Both the position numbers and the translations under genes were made by a program. This document shows positions 5,383 through 10,641 of a stretch of 53,478 nt of DNA, piece after piece; position 1 is the first letter of the stretch, and every line of letters begins with the position of its first letter. The stretch is from the NCBI GenBank assembly GCA_945881915.1, contig CAMCVW010000022.1, forward strand, positions 1-53,478. The letters run 5' to 3'. Under the pieces are notes generated by a model. The model saw only the letters and a program-made list of their open reading frames with translations, did no database searches and was not told the DNA's origin. The DNA comes from Thermoflexus hugenholtzii JAD2. Lineage in GTDB: Bacteria; Chloroflexota; Chloroflexia; Chloroflexales; Roseiflexaceae.

Positions 5383-5892
5383 TTATTTCGAGAACGATAC
5401 CGCGCGTGGGCCTTTTGCACTTGCTGCGAGTTCTACGAAGACGACGTCAGACACGGCGATTTCTGTACGCTGTTGTGCAAACAGCGACGAATGGACATAT
5501 GCATCGATTGTTGTTTCGTCGATGCGAACAAACAGATACTGCCAGCTAGGGTCAATCCGGATGATGGTCGCTTGGACGATACCGGCAGGCAACGCGCCGC
5601 GATGCGCAGGACGCGTTGTGCTCGCAAATCCATCACCGCTACGATAGGTGTTCCGTGCAGGTTGAGGGATCACCGCTGCGCCGATTCGTCCTGCAGCGGT
5701 AACGTCTTGTGGGCATACCGATCCTTCTCGGCCGGCGTCTGTCTGCAACCCTTTGATGGCTCTGCGGCGCAGTGGGCATCGTACGGGCTCATTGGTGAAG
5801 CCTTTACTGGCATAAAATTCCTGTTCACCAGCACTAAACTCAAAGAATCCACCGCAGTCGCGACACGGCACCGTTTTGTCAATATACGTCAT
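5383..5892 (-). CDS. Zinc-ribbon protein with cold-shock-like C-terminal domain
   Basis: A 169-residue protein. Residues 4-40 match the probable zinc-ribbon family seen in many bacteria (CRDCGGFFEFSAGEQEFYAS, then GFTNEPVRCP), with C10, C13 and C39. The expected fourth ligand, normally Cys at position 42, is Arg here. Residues 105-169 resemble a cold-shock/OB fold (IVQATIIRID, YLFVRID, DAYVHSS, VVFVELAASAKGPRAVS), as in proteins that bind single-stranded nucleic acid. The linker at 45-100 is not recognised. The start was chosen for AAGGA before the second ATG. The gene lies 10 nt after the 202-aa gene, so they are probably co-transcribed. A role in RNA binding is inference. Confidence 0.75.
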   Translation of the reverse strand: MTYIDKTVPCRDCGGFFEFSAGEQEFYASKGFTNEPVRCPLRRRAIKGLQTDAGREGSVCPQDVTAAGRIGAAVIPQPARNTYRSGDGFASTTRPAHRGALPAGIVQATIIRIDPSWQYLFVRIDETTIDAYVHSSLFAQQRTEIAVSDVVFVELAASAKGPRAVSFSK

Positions 5893-5902
5893 GATCGTTC
5901 CT

Positions 5903-6511
5903 TCATACTTCATTCAATGATGAGCGAGCGAGAGTATGCGTCGGTATCGCACGCTCTAACAGGAGTTGCCACCCTGGTACTATGTGTTCGGTGGGGATGC
6001 GCCATCGGTGTTTGGGCCATGCTGCGATGCAGCGGTCACGATACTGCTGGCCGGATGTCGCCCGTATCCAATGCTCGTAGTGGATGACCCACGAAATGAG
6101 TTGGTTGTAGGCATCGTCGTGAGTCGCATGCGGTTCGCTGGCGATGTCTACATCATCTGGCAGATGTGGGTGCGCAGTGGCTGAGGGATGGCGAATCACA
6201 CGTGGAGCATATTCGAAGCGGTCGAGAAAAACCCCGCCAATCTCCTCCCAGCCCACATAGATACCGAATGCCCACAAACACAGCGTCGCACCGCGGTCTG
6301 CAGGCGTACAGTAGAGTGAACTACCCAATTGTGGGTTCTGTGGGCGGATCCGCTCGAGTCCATACGCACACAGTTGATTGCCGTGCTCGGCGCGAATATC
6401 ACAGCCAAACAACCAGCACTGCTGTGCAAGTAAGCGCATCGCATGCTGCTGTTCAGTCTTCGTCAAACAGACGGGAAAGTTCGTTTTCTGGACCTGCGGT
6501 CGTCTCGCCAT
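5903..6511 (-). CDS. Hypothetical protein of 202 aa
   Basis: I do not recognise this family. The protein is soluble, rich in Trp, His, Cys and Arg, and has no signal peptide. Short Cys-bearing stretches (QQCWLFGCD, SLYCTP) and a His/Asp-rich segment (residues 110-135) could bind metal, but no standard motif is present. The reading frame is intact, ends 10 nt before the zinc-ribbon gene, and follows the COG0523 gene after 99 bp on the same strand. The ribosome binding site is weak; TAGAAT about 9 nt before the ATG could be a -10 giving a near-leaderless transcript. Coding status is likely from context and length. Confidence 0.6.
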   Translation of the reverse strand: MARRPQVQKTNFPVCLTKTEQQHAMRLLAQQCWLFGCDIRAEHGNQLCAYGLERIRPQNPQLGSSLYCTPADRGATLCLWAFGIYVGWEEIGGVFLDRFEYAPRVIRHPSATAHPHLPDDVDIASEPHATHDDAYNQLISWVIHYEHWIRATSGQQYRDRCIAAWPKHRWRIPTEHIVPGWQLLLERAIPTHTLARSSLNEV

Positions 6512-6610
6512 GGGAAGTTCATTCTATTCAGACTGTGCACGAGACACAGTGACTACAGTCCGGACCTATGCGTCACGTTGTCGCATCGCTGCCACGTTGT
6601 GGCGAGACGG

Positions 6611-7843
6611 TTACGACTCCTCTTCTTCTCCGTCATCAGGAATCATCCAATCGCCGAACGGATCAGGGTATGCCAGCCATGTCTGCGGTCCGGCGGTGTA
6701 CTCTTCGTCAGTCAACAGACACGCATCGAGAGACTGCGTCAGTTCGCCGACATCGAGATGCATGCCGATGATGACGAGTTCTTGGCGGCAATCCCCCCAT
6801 GGTTCGACCCAATCGGCTTGGATGGCGGTCTGACTTTCGAGATCATCTGGCCAATCGCTCTTGTCGATACTCGCCCACCAAAAACCGCCGGGTTCTGTGT
6901 GTGCAAGCCCACCCGCTTGCGACCAGATGCCGACCGCATCGAGACGCGTTGCCAGCCAGAACAAGCCTTTGGAGCGCAACACCTCGCCCCAATCCTCGGC
7001 CATGAAATCCCACAGCCGCTGCGGGTGGAACGGTCGACGGGCCCGATAGACGAAGCTCCCGATACCGTATTCCTCGGTTTCGGGGATATGTTCCCCACGG
7101 AGCTCTTTGAGCCATCCTGGTGCAGCTGCAGCTGCGTCGAAGTCGAACAGTCCCGTATTGAGAATCGCCTGCACATCAATCGCGCACCGTTCTGCGCGCA
7201 TGATGCGTGCATCTGGGTTCAAACGCACAATGGCGGCTTCGAGACGACCAAGTTCATCGGGCGTTGCAGCATCGATTTTGTTAATGATGATGACATTGGC
7301 AAATTCGATTTGGTCGATGAGCAGGTCGACGACATTCCGCTCATCCTGCTCGTCAACAGCCACTCCTCGTGTGCGCAAATCATCGAGTGACACAAACTCG
7401 CGGAAGAACGAACCCGCATCGACCACCGTTACCATCGTATCGAGTCGGGCGATATCCCCGAGGCTGACCCCGTCTTCGTCTTCGAAGGTGAATGTCTCGG
7501 CAACAGGGAGTGGTTCTGAAATACCGGTCGATTCGATGATCAGGTAATCAAAGCGCTGTTCGCGGGCCAGCCGTGTCACCTCGATAAGCAAATCCTCGCG
7601 CAATGTGCAACAGATACAGCCGTTGCTCATCTCGACGAGCTGTTCGTCGACACGATGTAAAGCTGCACCACCACGACGCACCAGCTGGGCATCGATGTTG
7701 ACCTCGCTCATGTCGTTGACAATCACGGCCACGCGGAGCCCATGGCGATGATTGAGGATGTGATTCAACAACGTCGTTTTGCCGGCCCCCAAAAAGCCCG
7801 ACAGTACCGTGACCGGTAGCGGGGTGATCGCTTGTGGGTGCAT
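6611..7843 (-). CDS. COG0523 (CobW/ZNG1-like) metal-chaperone GTPase
   Basis: A 410-residue G3E-family P-loop GTPase. Walker A is SGFLGAGKTTLLNHIL (K22). The hallmark metal motif CICC is at 76-79. ESTGISEP follows at 104-111 and the guanine-specificity motif NKID at 188-191. A CobW C-terminal domain begins near residue 280 (GIGSFVYRARRPFHP). COG0523 proteins use GTP to load metal, often zinc under starvation, onto client enzymes in the cytoplasm. The C-terminus is acidic (DDGEEEES) rather than His-rich. The ATG begins one base after the stop of the 82-aa gene, so both share the promoter and Zur-like operators at 8115-8158. Zinc rather than cobalt or iron is inferred from the operator type. 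Confidence 0.92.
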   Translation of the reverse strand: MHPQAITPLPVTVLSGFLGAGKTTLLNHILNHRHGLRVAVIVNDMSEVNIDAQLVRRGGAALHRVDEQLVEMSNGCICCTLREDLLIEVTRLAREQRFDYLIIESTGISEPLPVAETFTFEDEDGVSLGDIARLDTMVTVVDAGSFFREFVSLDDLRTRGVAVDEQDERNVVDLLIDQIEFANVIIINKIDAATPDELGRLEAAIVRLNPDARIMRAERCAIDVQAILNTGLFDFDAAAAAPGWLKELRGEHIPETEEYGIGSFVYRARRPFHPQRLWDFMAEDWGEVLRSKGLFWLATRLDAVGIWSQAGGLAHTEPGGFWWASIDKSDWPDDLESQTAIQADWVEPWGDCRQELVIIGMHLDVGELTQSLDACLLTDEEYTAGPQTWLAYPDPFGDWMIPDDGEEEES

Positions 7844-7844
7844 G

Positions 7845-8093
7845 TTATTTGCCCTCACGGGGACAGCGTGCAGCACCATCCGTCGCCAACTCAGCCGCCG
7901 TACCAAGCAATTGATTGAAGCACTCACGGCGGTAATAGGTCTTGTTTGCACGATGCGGATCCATCACGACCATCATCTCGCGGTCGTTGAGGATGCGTGA
8001 GCCGCAATGGCTACAGTCGCGATTGGTGGCTTTGCCGGTCTTGTCACGTGCCGTGACGTCTGTCTTTGATTTGCCTTTGATCTCACGCGCCAT
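7845..8093 (-). CDS. Small four-Cys protein, first gene of the metal operon
   Basis: An 82-residue basic protein of no family I recognise. It has C27 and C30 in RDCSHCGSR, C58 in RRECFNQ and C77 in RCPRE, a possible treble-clef or zinc-ribbon arrangement. The N-terminal 25 residues are Lys/Thr/Arg-rich and probably disordered, and could bind RNA or ribosome. GGGGG precedes the ATG. The stop TAA is separated by one base from the COG0523 ATG. In many bacteria Zur operons pair a COG0523 protein with low-zinc paralogs of ribosomal proteins or zinc enzymes; this gene occupies that place but resembles none of them. It could be a client, a zinc sensor or a zinc store. Confidence 0.75.
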   Translation of the reverse strand: MAREIKGKSKTDVTARDKTGKATNRDCSHCGSRILNDREMMVVMDPHRANKTYYRRECFNQLLGTAAELATDGAARCPREGK

Positions 8094-8114: not shown

Positions 8115-8143
8115 ATGATATTGATAGTTACTATCAATATCAA
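8115..8143 (-). promoter_or_regulatory. Promoter of the 82-aa/COG0523 operon
   Basis: Read on the minus strand: -35 TTGATA (8138-8143; 5 of 6 consensus), a 17-bp spacer, and -10 TATCAT (8115-8120; 5 of 6). The spacer consists of the perfect operator 8122-8136 plus one base on each side. A start near 8108 would give a leader of about 15 nt with GGGGG as the ribosome binding site. The geometry predicts repression when the operator is occupied. Confidence 0.7.
8116..8142. promoter_or_regulatory. Fur-family (Zur-like) operator 1
   Basis: A perfect inverted repeat with 12-nt arms (TGATATTGATAG / CTATCAATATCA) around TTA. Its core TGATAGTTACTATCA (8122-8136) is a 7-1-7 palindrome, the architecture of Fur/Zur/Mur sites. 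It shares the TGATA-N5-TATCA ends of known Zur boxes in actinobacteria and cyanobacteria. Assignment to Zur rests on the downstream COG0523 gene. Confidence 0.7.
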
Positions 8144-8158
8144 TGATACTCACTATCA
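8144..8158. promoter_or_regulatory. Fur-family (Zur-like) operator 2
   Basis: TGATACTCACTATCA is a second 7-1-7 palindrome with one mismatched pair. Its centre (8151) lies 22 bp from the centre of operator 1 (8129), two helical turns, so two dimers could bind the same face. It lies just upstream of the -35 box, on the side toward the divergent aminotransferase gene. Confidence 0.6.
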
Positions 8159-8253
8159 ATACCAATGTCAAGTGGGTGTAACGAGGCAACGTTCTGTGCC
8201 TGCAGATCGAGCGAATTCTGTCATACTAGTGCCAACGAGACGGAGGAAAGACT

Positions 8254-9411
8254 ATGCAACACACTATGAGCGACCCGCTCGGCCTGCGCGCGGAGTTCCC
8301 CATCACCGAGAGTTGGAACTACTTGAACTGTGCGGCGATAGCGCCGTTGAGTCATGCCGCCCGCAACGCGGGCATTACCTTCATGGACGAGCGCATGTAT
8401 GAACCGTGGCCGGACCCAGCCCCGATGGGGTTGATCCGGCTGCGGCAACGCAAGGACCGTGTGCGGGCAGCGTTTGCCAAACTCATCGGCGCGCAACCCG
8501 GCGAGATTGGCTTGGTCGAGTCGACGAGCGCCGGCGAAAACATCGTGGCCCGGGCACTCGACCTCAAACCGGGCGACGAAATCGTCGTCGACGCATTGCA
8601 CTTCGAATCGAGTTATCTGCTCTACCGCCAATTGGAGCAGAGCCACGGCATCGTGCTGCGTGTGGTCGCACACAAAGAAGGCCGGATAGACCCCGAAGAC
8701 ATCGCAGCGGTGTGCGGGCAACGGACGCGGCTGGTGTCGTTGTCGTGGGTATCGAACCGTAACGGATTCCGCCACGACGTGGCTCAGATAGCAGCCATCG
8801 CCCACGCCCATGGCGCGTATTGTTATGTCGATGCGATCCAGGCGGTGGGCACATTTGTGATTGATGTGGCGGCAGCTGACGTCGATTTTTTGGCATGCGG
8901 GAGCTATAAGTGGCTGTATGCCAACTTCGGCGTGTCGTTTTTGTATGTGAAAAACAGCCTGCTCGATCGGATACCGTCGGACCGGTTCGGGCATACGCAT
9001 GTGGCAGCGGCGACCGAGGATCTGCAGTTTACGGTCAAAAGCGACGCCAGCAAGTACGAATACGCGGCGATTGCCCACACCTCGGTAGCACAGCTCGAAG
9101 GCGCGTTGAGCCTGTTTGAACGGGTGGGTATACATACCATCGAACGGCATGGGCTGGCGTTGGCGCAGCGGCTGTGGACGGGTCTTGAAGCAGCTGGCTG
9201 TGACATGTTCACGCCGCCACACACCCAATCAGCGATTGTGTCGATCTACACCCATGAGCATACTGCTGCGCTCGAAGCGGCACTCAAGCAGCACAAGATT
9301 GCGGCGTTGTTCCGCGAAAACAACACATCGCTGCGACTGGGCTGTGCGATGTTTAATACGGTGGACGAAATAGATCAGTGTGTTAGTGTGATACGTCGAG
9401 TAATGAAGTAA
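8254..9411 (+). CDS. Class V aminotransferase (cysteine desulfurase-like fold)
   Basis: A 385-residue PLP enzyme. STSAGEN at about 90-96 is the cofactor-phosphate region. D193 in YVDAIQAVG pairs with the pyridine nitrogen. K219 in ACGSYKW is the Schiff-base lysine. The C-terminal small domain includes ENNTSLRLGCAMFNT, as in class V enzymes. No desulfurase-type active-site Cys loop is evident, so kynureninase-, epimerase- or aminotransferase-like chemistry is equally possible. GGAGGAAAG precedes the ATG. A weak extended -10 (TGTCATACT, 8219-8227) lies upstream. The gene is divergent from the metal operon and shares its operator region. A decayed copy of its 3' third lies at 10283-10641. Confidence 0.88.
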   Translation: MQHTMSDPLGLRAEFPITESWNYLNCAAIAPLSHAARNAGITFMDERMYEPWPDPAPMGLIRLRQRKDRVRAAFAKLIGAQPGEIGLVESTSAGENIVARALDLKPGDEIVVDALHFESSYLLYRQLEQSHGIVLRVVAHKEGRIDPEDIAAVCGQRTRLVSLSWVSNRNGFRHDVAQIAAIAHAHGAYCYVDAIQAVGTFVIDVAAADVDFLACGSYKWLYANFGVSFLYVKNSLLDRIPSDRFGHTHVAAATEDLQFTVKSDASKYEYAAIAHTSVAQLEGALSLFERVGIHTIERHGLALAQRLWTGLEAAGCDMFTPPHTQSAIVSIYTHEHTAALEAALKQHKIAALFRENNTSLRLGCAMFNTVDEIDQCVSVIRRVMK

Positions 9412-9620: not shown

Positions 9621-9658
9621 TTGGGATGTATAATTGTTTTTGTATGGAGAGGTTTCAG

Positions 9659-10210
9659 ATGAAACATCGGATGCTTTTGGTCGGGGGAATGACGTTATTG
9701 CTGCTGTTCAGCTCCTGTGGGAATACCGCTGCCGAACAACCCATGTCAGCACAACCAACAGCTGAGCAAATGACAACCGAAGAAAACGCACCAGCAGAAG
9801 AGGGTACAGAGCAGTCCTCCGTCGAGGAAGCACCTGCGGACAACACTGCCGAATCAGCAGGGAGCACTGCAGCACCTAAAAACGGTCCGTACATGCCATT
9901 GACTGCCGATGCCGACGTCCAAACAAAGAATCCCGTGAACGGTGAACCGTTCCCACAGACCGACATTCAGGTTATGTTCCTCTCGGATCTCGAAATCCCG
10001 GCAGCCCAAGAAGAATTGACTTTGCGATATGCAGAAGCTGGCTGGACTGTCACCGTTACAGAAGCTAAGGAATCGCTCGTCACCTTCACAGCAGCGCCGC
10101 CGCAGACAAGCACCTGGAAGGGTACCTGCACCATGGGTCTGCAAAAAGGCAGTCCAGAAGTCATGGGCACCCCAAAGTTGGTCATTAAAGGATTGTGCTA
10201 CGCCAACTAG
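9659..10210 (+). CDS. Secreted lipoprotein of unknown function
   Basis: A 183-residue protein. It has a signal peptide and lipobox (LLLLFSSCGN; lipidated Cys at residue 20). A low-complexity Ala/Glu/Thr/Gln linker (about 22-70) follows, then a compact C-terminal domain of about 110 residues with two Cys (KGTCTMG and GLCYAN) that may form a disulfide. No known domain is recognised. GGAGAGG at good spacing supports this ATG rather than the upstream one. The gene has its own promoter and a strong terminator, so it is a single-gene unit. It sits exactly between the full aminotransferase gene and the decayed copy of its 3' end. Confidence 0.8.
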   Translation: MKHRMLLVGGMTLLLLFSSCGNTAAEQPMSAQPTAEQMTTEENAPAEEGTEQSSVEEAPADNTAESAGSTAAPKNGPYMPLTADADVQTKNPVNGEPFPQTDIQVMFLSDLEIPAAQEELTLRYAEAGWTVTVTEAKESLVTFTAAPPQTSTWKGTCTMGLQKGSPEVMGTPKLVIKGLCYAN

Positions 10211-10282: not shown

Positions 10283-10641
10283 CCTGCCATTGATCACACC
10301 TCGGACGCGCAACTCGAAGGCGCGTAGAGCCTGTTAGAACGGGTGGCATCGAAACCATCGAACGGCACGGGCTTGCTTTGTCACGTCGTCTGTGGACGCG
10401 GCTCGAGGCCGCGAGGTGTGAATTGTTTACCCCGCCGCAACATACCCAATCGGCGATTGTGTCGATCTATACCCATGAACACACTGCTGCGCTCGAAGCA
10501 GCGCTCAAGCAACACAAGATAGCGGCGTTGTTTCGCGAAAACAACACGTCACTGCGACTGGGCTGTGCGATGTTTAACACGGCCGAGGAGATTGATCAGT
10601 GTGTGGATGTTGTGCGCAAAGCAAGAACGGGGAAATTATGA
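10283..10641 (+). pseudogene. Decayed copy of the aminotransferase 3' third
   Basis: This stretch aligns with 9072-9411 of the intact class V aminotransferase gene. The last 65 codons are almost identical in protein (TQSAIVSIYTHEHTAALEAA, then LRLGCAMFNT), with many synonymous changes. The first part carries two in-frame TAG codons (GCGTAGAGCCTGTTAGAACG where the intact gene has GCGTTGAGCCTGTTTGAACG) and a small deletion near the next codons. The cofactor-binding domain is missing and no ribosome binding site is seen. The frame from about 10378 reads 87 residues but would be only a fragment of the small domain. Confidence 0.9.

Follow-up and report, generated by a model that had tools for sequence, protein, structure and literature searches.

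Genes and operator sites at the locus

The window, that is, the whole stretch of DNA analysed (53,478 nucleotides from assembly GCA_945881915.1 of the family Roseiflexaceae, Chloroflexota; genome G000), carries on its minus strand a putative operon headed by genes for an 82-aa Cys protein and a ZigA-type COG0523 GTPase (Table 1). The zigA start codon lies 1 nt past the stop codon of the first gene, and the ZigA assignment is above the curated cut-off of its family. Two further genes follow close behind zigA and are probably included, although beyond zigA we infer the extent of the operon. The first of them encodes a protein with the motif QCWLWGCDIR and no Pfam match, whose relatives sit in the zinc loci of three other genomes (G005, G010 and G018). 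The second encodes a PF13451 protein.

A class V aminotransferase gene is the divergent neighbour. A partial duplication of this gene, 85% identical to its last 93 residues, is found at 10342-10641 of the window, about 0.9 kb downstream and behind a lipoprotein-like ORF (9626-10210).

Table 1. Features of the locus and the paralog of its first gene (positions in the window unless a contig is named).
Feature	Position	Strand	Remarks
-35 element TTGACA	8166-8171	-	same offset from operator A in 12 of the 13 promoters aligned
Operator A	8144-8158	strand-neutral	TGATACTCACTATCA (minus strand TGATAGTGAGTATCA); one mismatch to a perfect 7-1-7 palindrome
-10 element TATCAT	8143-8148	-	overlapped by operator A
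Operator B	8122-8136	strand-neutral	TGATAGTTACTATCA; perfect 7-1-7 palindrome
82-aa Cys protein (B form), operon gene 1	7845-8093	-	paralog of the shorter A form
ZigA-type COG0523 GTPase	6611-7843	-	NF038288, 640.3 bits against a cut-off of 600
Conserved protein, function unassigned, QCWLWGCDIR motif; likely gene 3	5903-6511	-	relatives in zinc loci
Probable treble-clef protein; likely gene 4	5383-5913	-	PF13451
Class V aminotransferase	8254-9411	+	divergent neighbour
A form, about 64 aa, housekeeping-type	G000:C16:27720-27917 (L195:1501-1692)		paralog of the B form

Upstream of the putative operon we found two inverted repeats of the 7-1-7 type typical of the Fur family, here called operators A and B, which are 22 bp apart from centre to centre. 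Both had been predicted, one as a perfect palindrome and the other with one mismatch, and both are present. Operator B had been placed within an inverted repeat with 12-nt arms; it in fact lies within a perfect palindrome of 27 bp (8116-8142) with arms of 13 nt.

Promoter assignment and recurrence of the module

We aligned 13 promoters of the family, anchored on the operator nearest the -35 element. TTGACN-17-TATCAT was found in 12 of these, and the conserved -10 element is made up of the operator's right half and one further T. In the window, the corresponding promoter would be TTGACA-17-TATCAT (8171-8143), which has 11 of 12 consensus matches in the promoter scan. Operator A is the site proximal to its -35 element and covers part of the spacer and five of the six bases of the -10 element. 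Operator B, 22 bp downstream, would span approximately +1 to +15 if transcription starts where the -10 element predicts. The seven znuA promoters, each from a different genus member, all show this 22-bp spacing as well; the distance to the second site is 28 bp in the orthologous B-zigA operon of G018 and 28-29 bp before the COG0523 genes of G003 and G004.

The original prediction had proposed a scan of the whole genome for the motif and a list of downstream genes. In our pattern search of G000, the tandem pair recurs at one other place only, at G000:C1:100501 and 100523, again 22 bp apart and directly before a znuA gene (PF01297, 281 bits) with ATPase and permease genes alongside (znuA-znuC-znuB). 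Within G000, the site thus also precedes genes for zinc uptake. A composite of -35 element, operator and -10 element, TTGAC-N8-TGATAGT-NN-CTATCAT, allowed up to two mismatches, was found in exactly these two places, before the zigA operon and before znuA. Two exact matches to TGATAN5TATCA elsewhere in G000 were rejected as chance: one, at C34:15329, lies inside a peptide-permease gene, and the other, at C9:64116, spans the zur stop codon and the next start codon, where its bases encode MHYH.

Distribution of the motif in related genomes

Within the Roseiflexaceae, the motif precedes zigA, the gene of the 82-aa Cys protein and znuA. TGATAN5TATCA with at most one mismatch is located no more than 65 nt from the start of nine of ten B genes and before five of six stand-alone zigA genes, and close before none of 66 control genes (19 A-form genes, checked within 70 nt of the start, 19 rpmB genes encoding zinc-ribbon L28, 15 zur genes and 13 other fur genes). 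A site with one mismatch does occur at -101 of a single A-form gene. Fisher's test gave p ~5e-14, with genes counted as independent despite their relatedness. Across 158 genomes of the class, the composite module was found at 41 places against 4 for a reversed control, and 23 of the 34 places inspected were at zigA, other COG0523 or znuA genes. The original prediction had staked itself on enrichment of the motif before zinc or metal genes in this genome and its relatives, and such enrichment was found. Together with the znuA parallel, this conservation supports its claim that the operator controls the Cys-protein/COG0523 operon, although the control itself is predicted from sequence.

In order-mates, the module is also the first element of such operons. 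In G026 it is followed by a treble-clef protein gene related to the PF13451 gene of the window, an rpmB paralog whose product lacks the zinc ribbon, rpmB(C-), and zigA, and in G039 and G041 it heads zigA-rpmB(C-).

Two further occurrences were observed. A near-identical zigA-type module in G012 (G012:C137:14268-14296; L299) has no zigA behind it, possibly because the gene was deleted or because the target is different. In genus g8, an ArsP_1-type permease gene adjoining zur has the motif across its start (L231:4309, L234:11019 and L151:1501), which suggests that the zinc regulon there includes a metal permease of an unusual kind.

The A and B protein forms and L28

The 82-aa Cys protein had no Pfam family at 0.01, and searches of Pfam, NCBIfam and PDB sequences yielded nothing convincing; its weak matches were DUF7576 (E 0.025) and LIM chains in the PDB (E 0.26). 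In a two-sequence AlphaFold model of low quality (mean pLDDT 58), the order of the elements is like that of a treble clef (CxxC knuckle, beta hairpin, then a helix with further ligands). An A-form paralog is encoded in G000 and in most of the Roseiflexaceae, and among the 158 class genomes both forms are confined to this family. The A form carries CxxC...YHHxxC, and the B form CxHC...YYRRxC plus a C-terminal CP, so that the His pair is lost. Three or four Cys are retained, and the B form is not simply metal-free. The operator is found before the B gene and not before the A gene. B therefore resembles a copy of A for times of zinc starvation, and the pair would apparently consist of a small zinc finger and its zinc-starvation paralog.

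The operons of B genes in relatives also contain rpmB paralogs in which both pairs of the CxxC...CxxC zinc ribbon are lost, and the B form is usually encoded together with such a zinc-free L28. The site therefore precedes zinc-independent ribosomal paralogs in these genomes. G000 has the zinc-ribbon form of L28 only, with no second L28, so that this genome either lost the L28 swap or never acquired it. In G018, a zinc-free L28 gene (L025:2775-2948) is found behind zigA; the corresponding interval of the window (6511-6611) has none.

It is possible, though we put it somewhat below an even chance, that the first gene of the operon encodes the zinc-starvation copy of an undescribed zinc finger, with the everyday A form (CxxC...HHxxC) being swapped for a Zur-controlled B form, without the His pair and with a C-terminal Cys gained, when zinc is short. 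The coupling of the B gene to the zinc-free L28 gene suggests a role on or near the ribosome.

Alternative readings of the site, its regulator and its targets

Palindromy alone is weak evidence, since the composition of the window alone predicts about four perfect 7-1-7 palindromes, whatever their sequence (4.2, with three present), and a chance palindrome or a DNA structure with no regulatory role might be suspected on that basis. The weight of the evidence lies instead in the same sequence recurring in the same arrangement. TGATAN5TATCA with at most one mismatch has six matches in the window against 0.77 expected, and a first-order model of the window predicts about 0.003 exact matches to TGATAGTNACTATCA in 3.09 Mb. 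The zinc operons of many genomes repeat the sequence, the spacing and the promoter register, a conservation pattern that refutes the chance reading and leaves it with a negligible probability. The pair of palindromes is best read as a tandem Zur operator. A different register on the promoter had been proposed, with TTGATA (8143-8138) and TATCAT (8120-8115) on the minus strand as the promoter and the perfect operator in its 17-bp spacer. These hexamers and their spacing do exist, matching 10 of 12 consensus positions, and both promoters could be active. The TTGATA promoter nevertheless has no counterpart in relatives, where G018 and all znuA genes have a ribosome binding site or start codon after operator B, and its hexamers are a by-product of the 22-bp repeat itself; the position of TTGACN-17-TATCAT is the one fixed relative to operator A. 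We therefore consider the TTGATA promoter unlikely and take TTGACA-17-TATCAT as the conserved promoter predicted for the window.

Zur is the likely ligand of the operator, as judged mainly from its targets, and the Fur-family type of the site that had been claimed is supported. G000 encodes one Fur-family protein (G000:C9, approximately 64129-64623, minus strand); a second homolog could be missing, as this draft is 98.6% complete. Where relatives have several Fur proteins, those encoded at zinc loci group in a single clade with the signature D(D/E)CHRY, to which the only G000 copy also belongs. No Fur-family protein was detected in G018 and G019, two site-bearing genus members, probably owing to draft gaps. 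Autoregulation of zur through the motif was rejected, as none of the 15 zur genes has the site. We also dropped any identification of Zur from protein models or PDB matches alone: with NCBIfam, Fur models score above the Zur model and the Fur, PerR and Zur models are all far below their cut-offs, and in the PDB the Fur structure 2w57 (60.8 bits) is slightly better than the Zur structure 2o03 (56.2 bits). A Fur, Mur or PerR protein that senses iron, manganese or peroxide, with the zinc genes as only part of its regulon, would fit this slight preference; in addition, 7-1-7 TGATA...TATCA boxes are common to the Fur family at large, and manganese SBP models also match the ZnuA-like protein. Such a regulator is nonetheless improbable, more so than the TTGATA promoter. 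The targets are zinc-specific, with ZigA above its cut-off and, above all, zinc-ribbon-less L28 paralogs adjoining the B gene in relatives; in other genera with at least two Fur proteins, it is the copy adjoining zinc genes that clusters with the G000 protein; and a separate DtxR-family regulator in G000 can take over iron or manganese. Regarding targets, the aminotransferase had been named as possibly repressed by the same operator, which lies 96 bp upstream of its start codon, and oligomers of Fur-family proteins are able to spread over DNA. Against this, no operator precedes its orthologs in G025, G022 and G023, even though the G025 ortholog (93% identical) retains the proximal promoter-like TTCTGTCATACTAGTGCCA, with nothing shared further upstream. 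In G018, a different gene precedes the retained operator and B-zigA operon, and no aminotransferase is adjacent. Control of this gene is about as doubtful as the TTGATA promoter; a zinc role for it was rejected on account of the three siteless orthologs, and it is most likely a bystander neighbour of a Zur-type operator.

Discussion

Our analysis indicates that 8115-8171 very probably combines the promoter of a zinc-starvation operon with a double operator through which Zur controls it. Under zinc sufficiency, Zur dimers carrying zinc would occupy both 7-1-7 sites, which at 22 bp, two helical turns, would lie on the same face of the DNA. With operator A over the -10 element of TTGACA-17-TATCAT and operator B over the predicted start region, RNA polymerase would be excluded, and the tight repression originally predicted is plausible from the geometry of the sites. 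As zinc falls, Zur would leave the DNA and the B-form gene, zigA and probably two more genes would be transcribed leftward.

To our knowledge, regulators have hardly been tested in this part of the Chloroflexota. The locus provides a candidate Zur operator model for it, comprising motif, spacing, promoter register and regulon, in a layout that can be traced across related Chloroflexota genomes. The corrected assignment of the sites to the promoter decides which bases should be targeted by mutation. Moreover, genes with no assigned function are marked as probable zinc-starvation genes, above all that of the small A/B protein, whose function, once found, could lengthen the list of zinc-saving swaps.

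A literature search for Zur in Chloroflexi or Roseiflexus, with RegPrecise Zur entries outside its scope, found no study. For the Chloroflexi collection of RegPrecise 3.0, predicted regulons for five genomes are reported, with Zur among the most widespread factors (PMC3840689), and this resource may already list the motif for cultivated relatives. Neither COG0523 genes under Zur control nor double Zur boxes are new. The Zur-linked COG0523 subgroup of Haas et al. (2009) comprises 68 cases from Firmicutes, Proteobacteria and Cyanobacteria (PMC2770081). Like that subgroup and ZigA of Acinetobacter baumannii, the window has a COG0523 gene behind predicted Zur sites, with a ZigA score above the cut-off; the Chloroflexota are not among the phyla named in that survey (PMC2770081).

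The closest parallels are found in two well-described systems. The COG0523 gene yciC of Bacillus subtilis has two Zur boxes, overlapping the -35 and -10 elements (PMC6103462). The window shares with yciC the COG0523 gene and the two-box promoter, but its boxes are at -10 and approximately +1 with none at -35, and its target is of the ZigA type, behind the gene of the 82-aa Cys protein and in a different phylum. Streptomyces coelicolor has a double Zur box at znuA, and its zinc-free L28 paralog (rpmB2) is a Zur target (PMC6103462). Two predicted Zur boxes at znuA and, in relatives, a zinc-free L28 paralog as putative target are found here too, whereas the sequence of the site and its promoter register differ and the zinc-free L28 is absent from G000, although present in its relatives. 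Judged from these comparisons, the lineage-specific element of the predicted operator is its register, -10 plus +1. Novelty is most likely to lie in the A/B protein pair.
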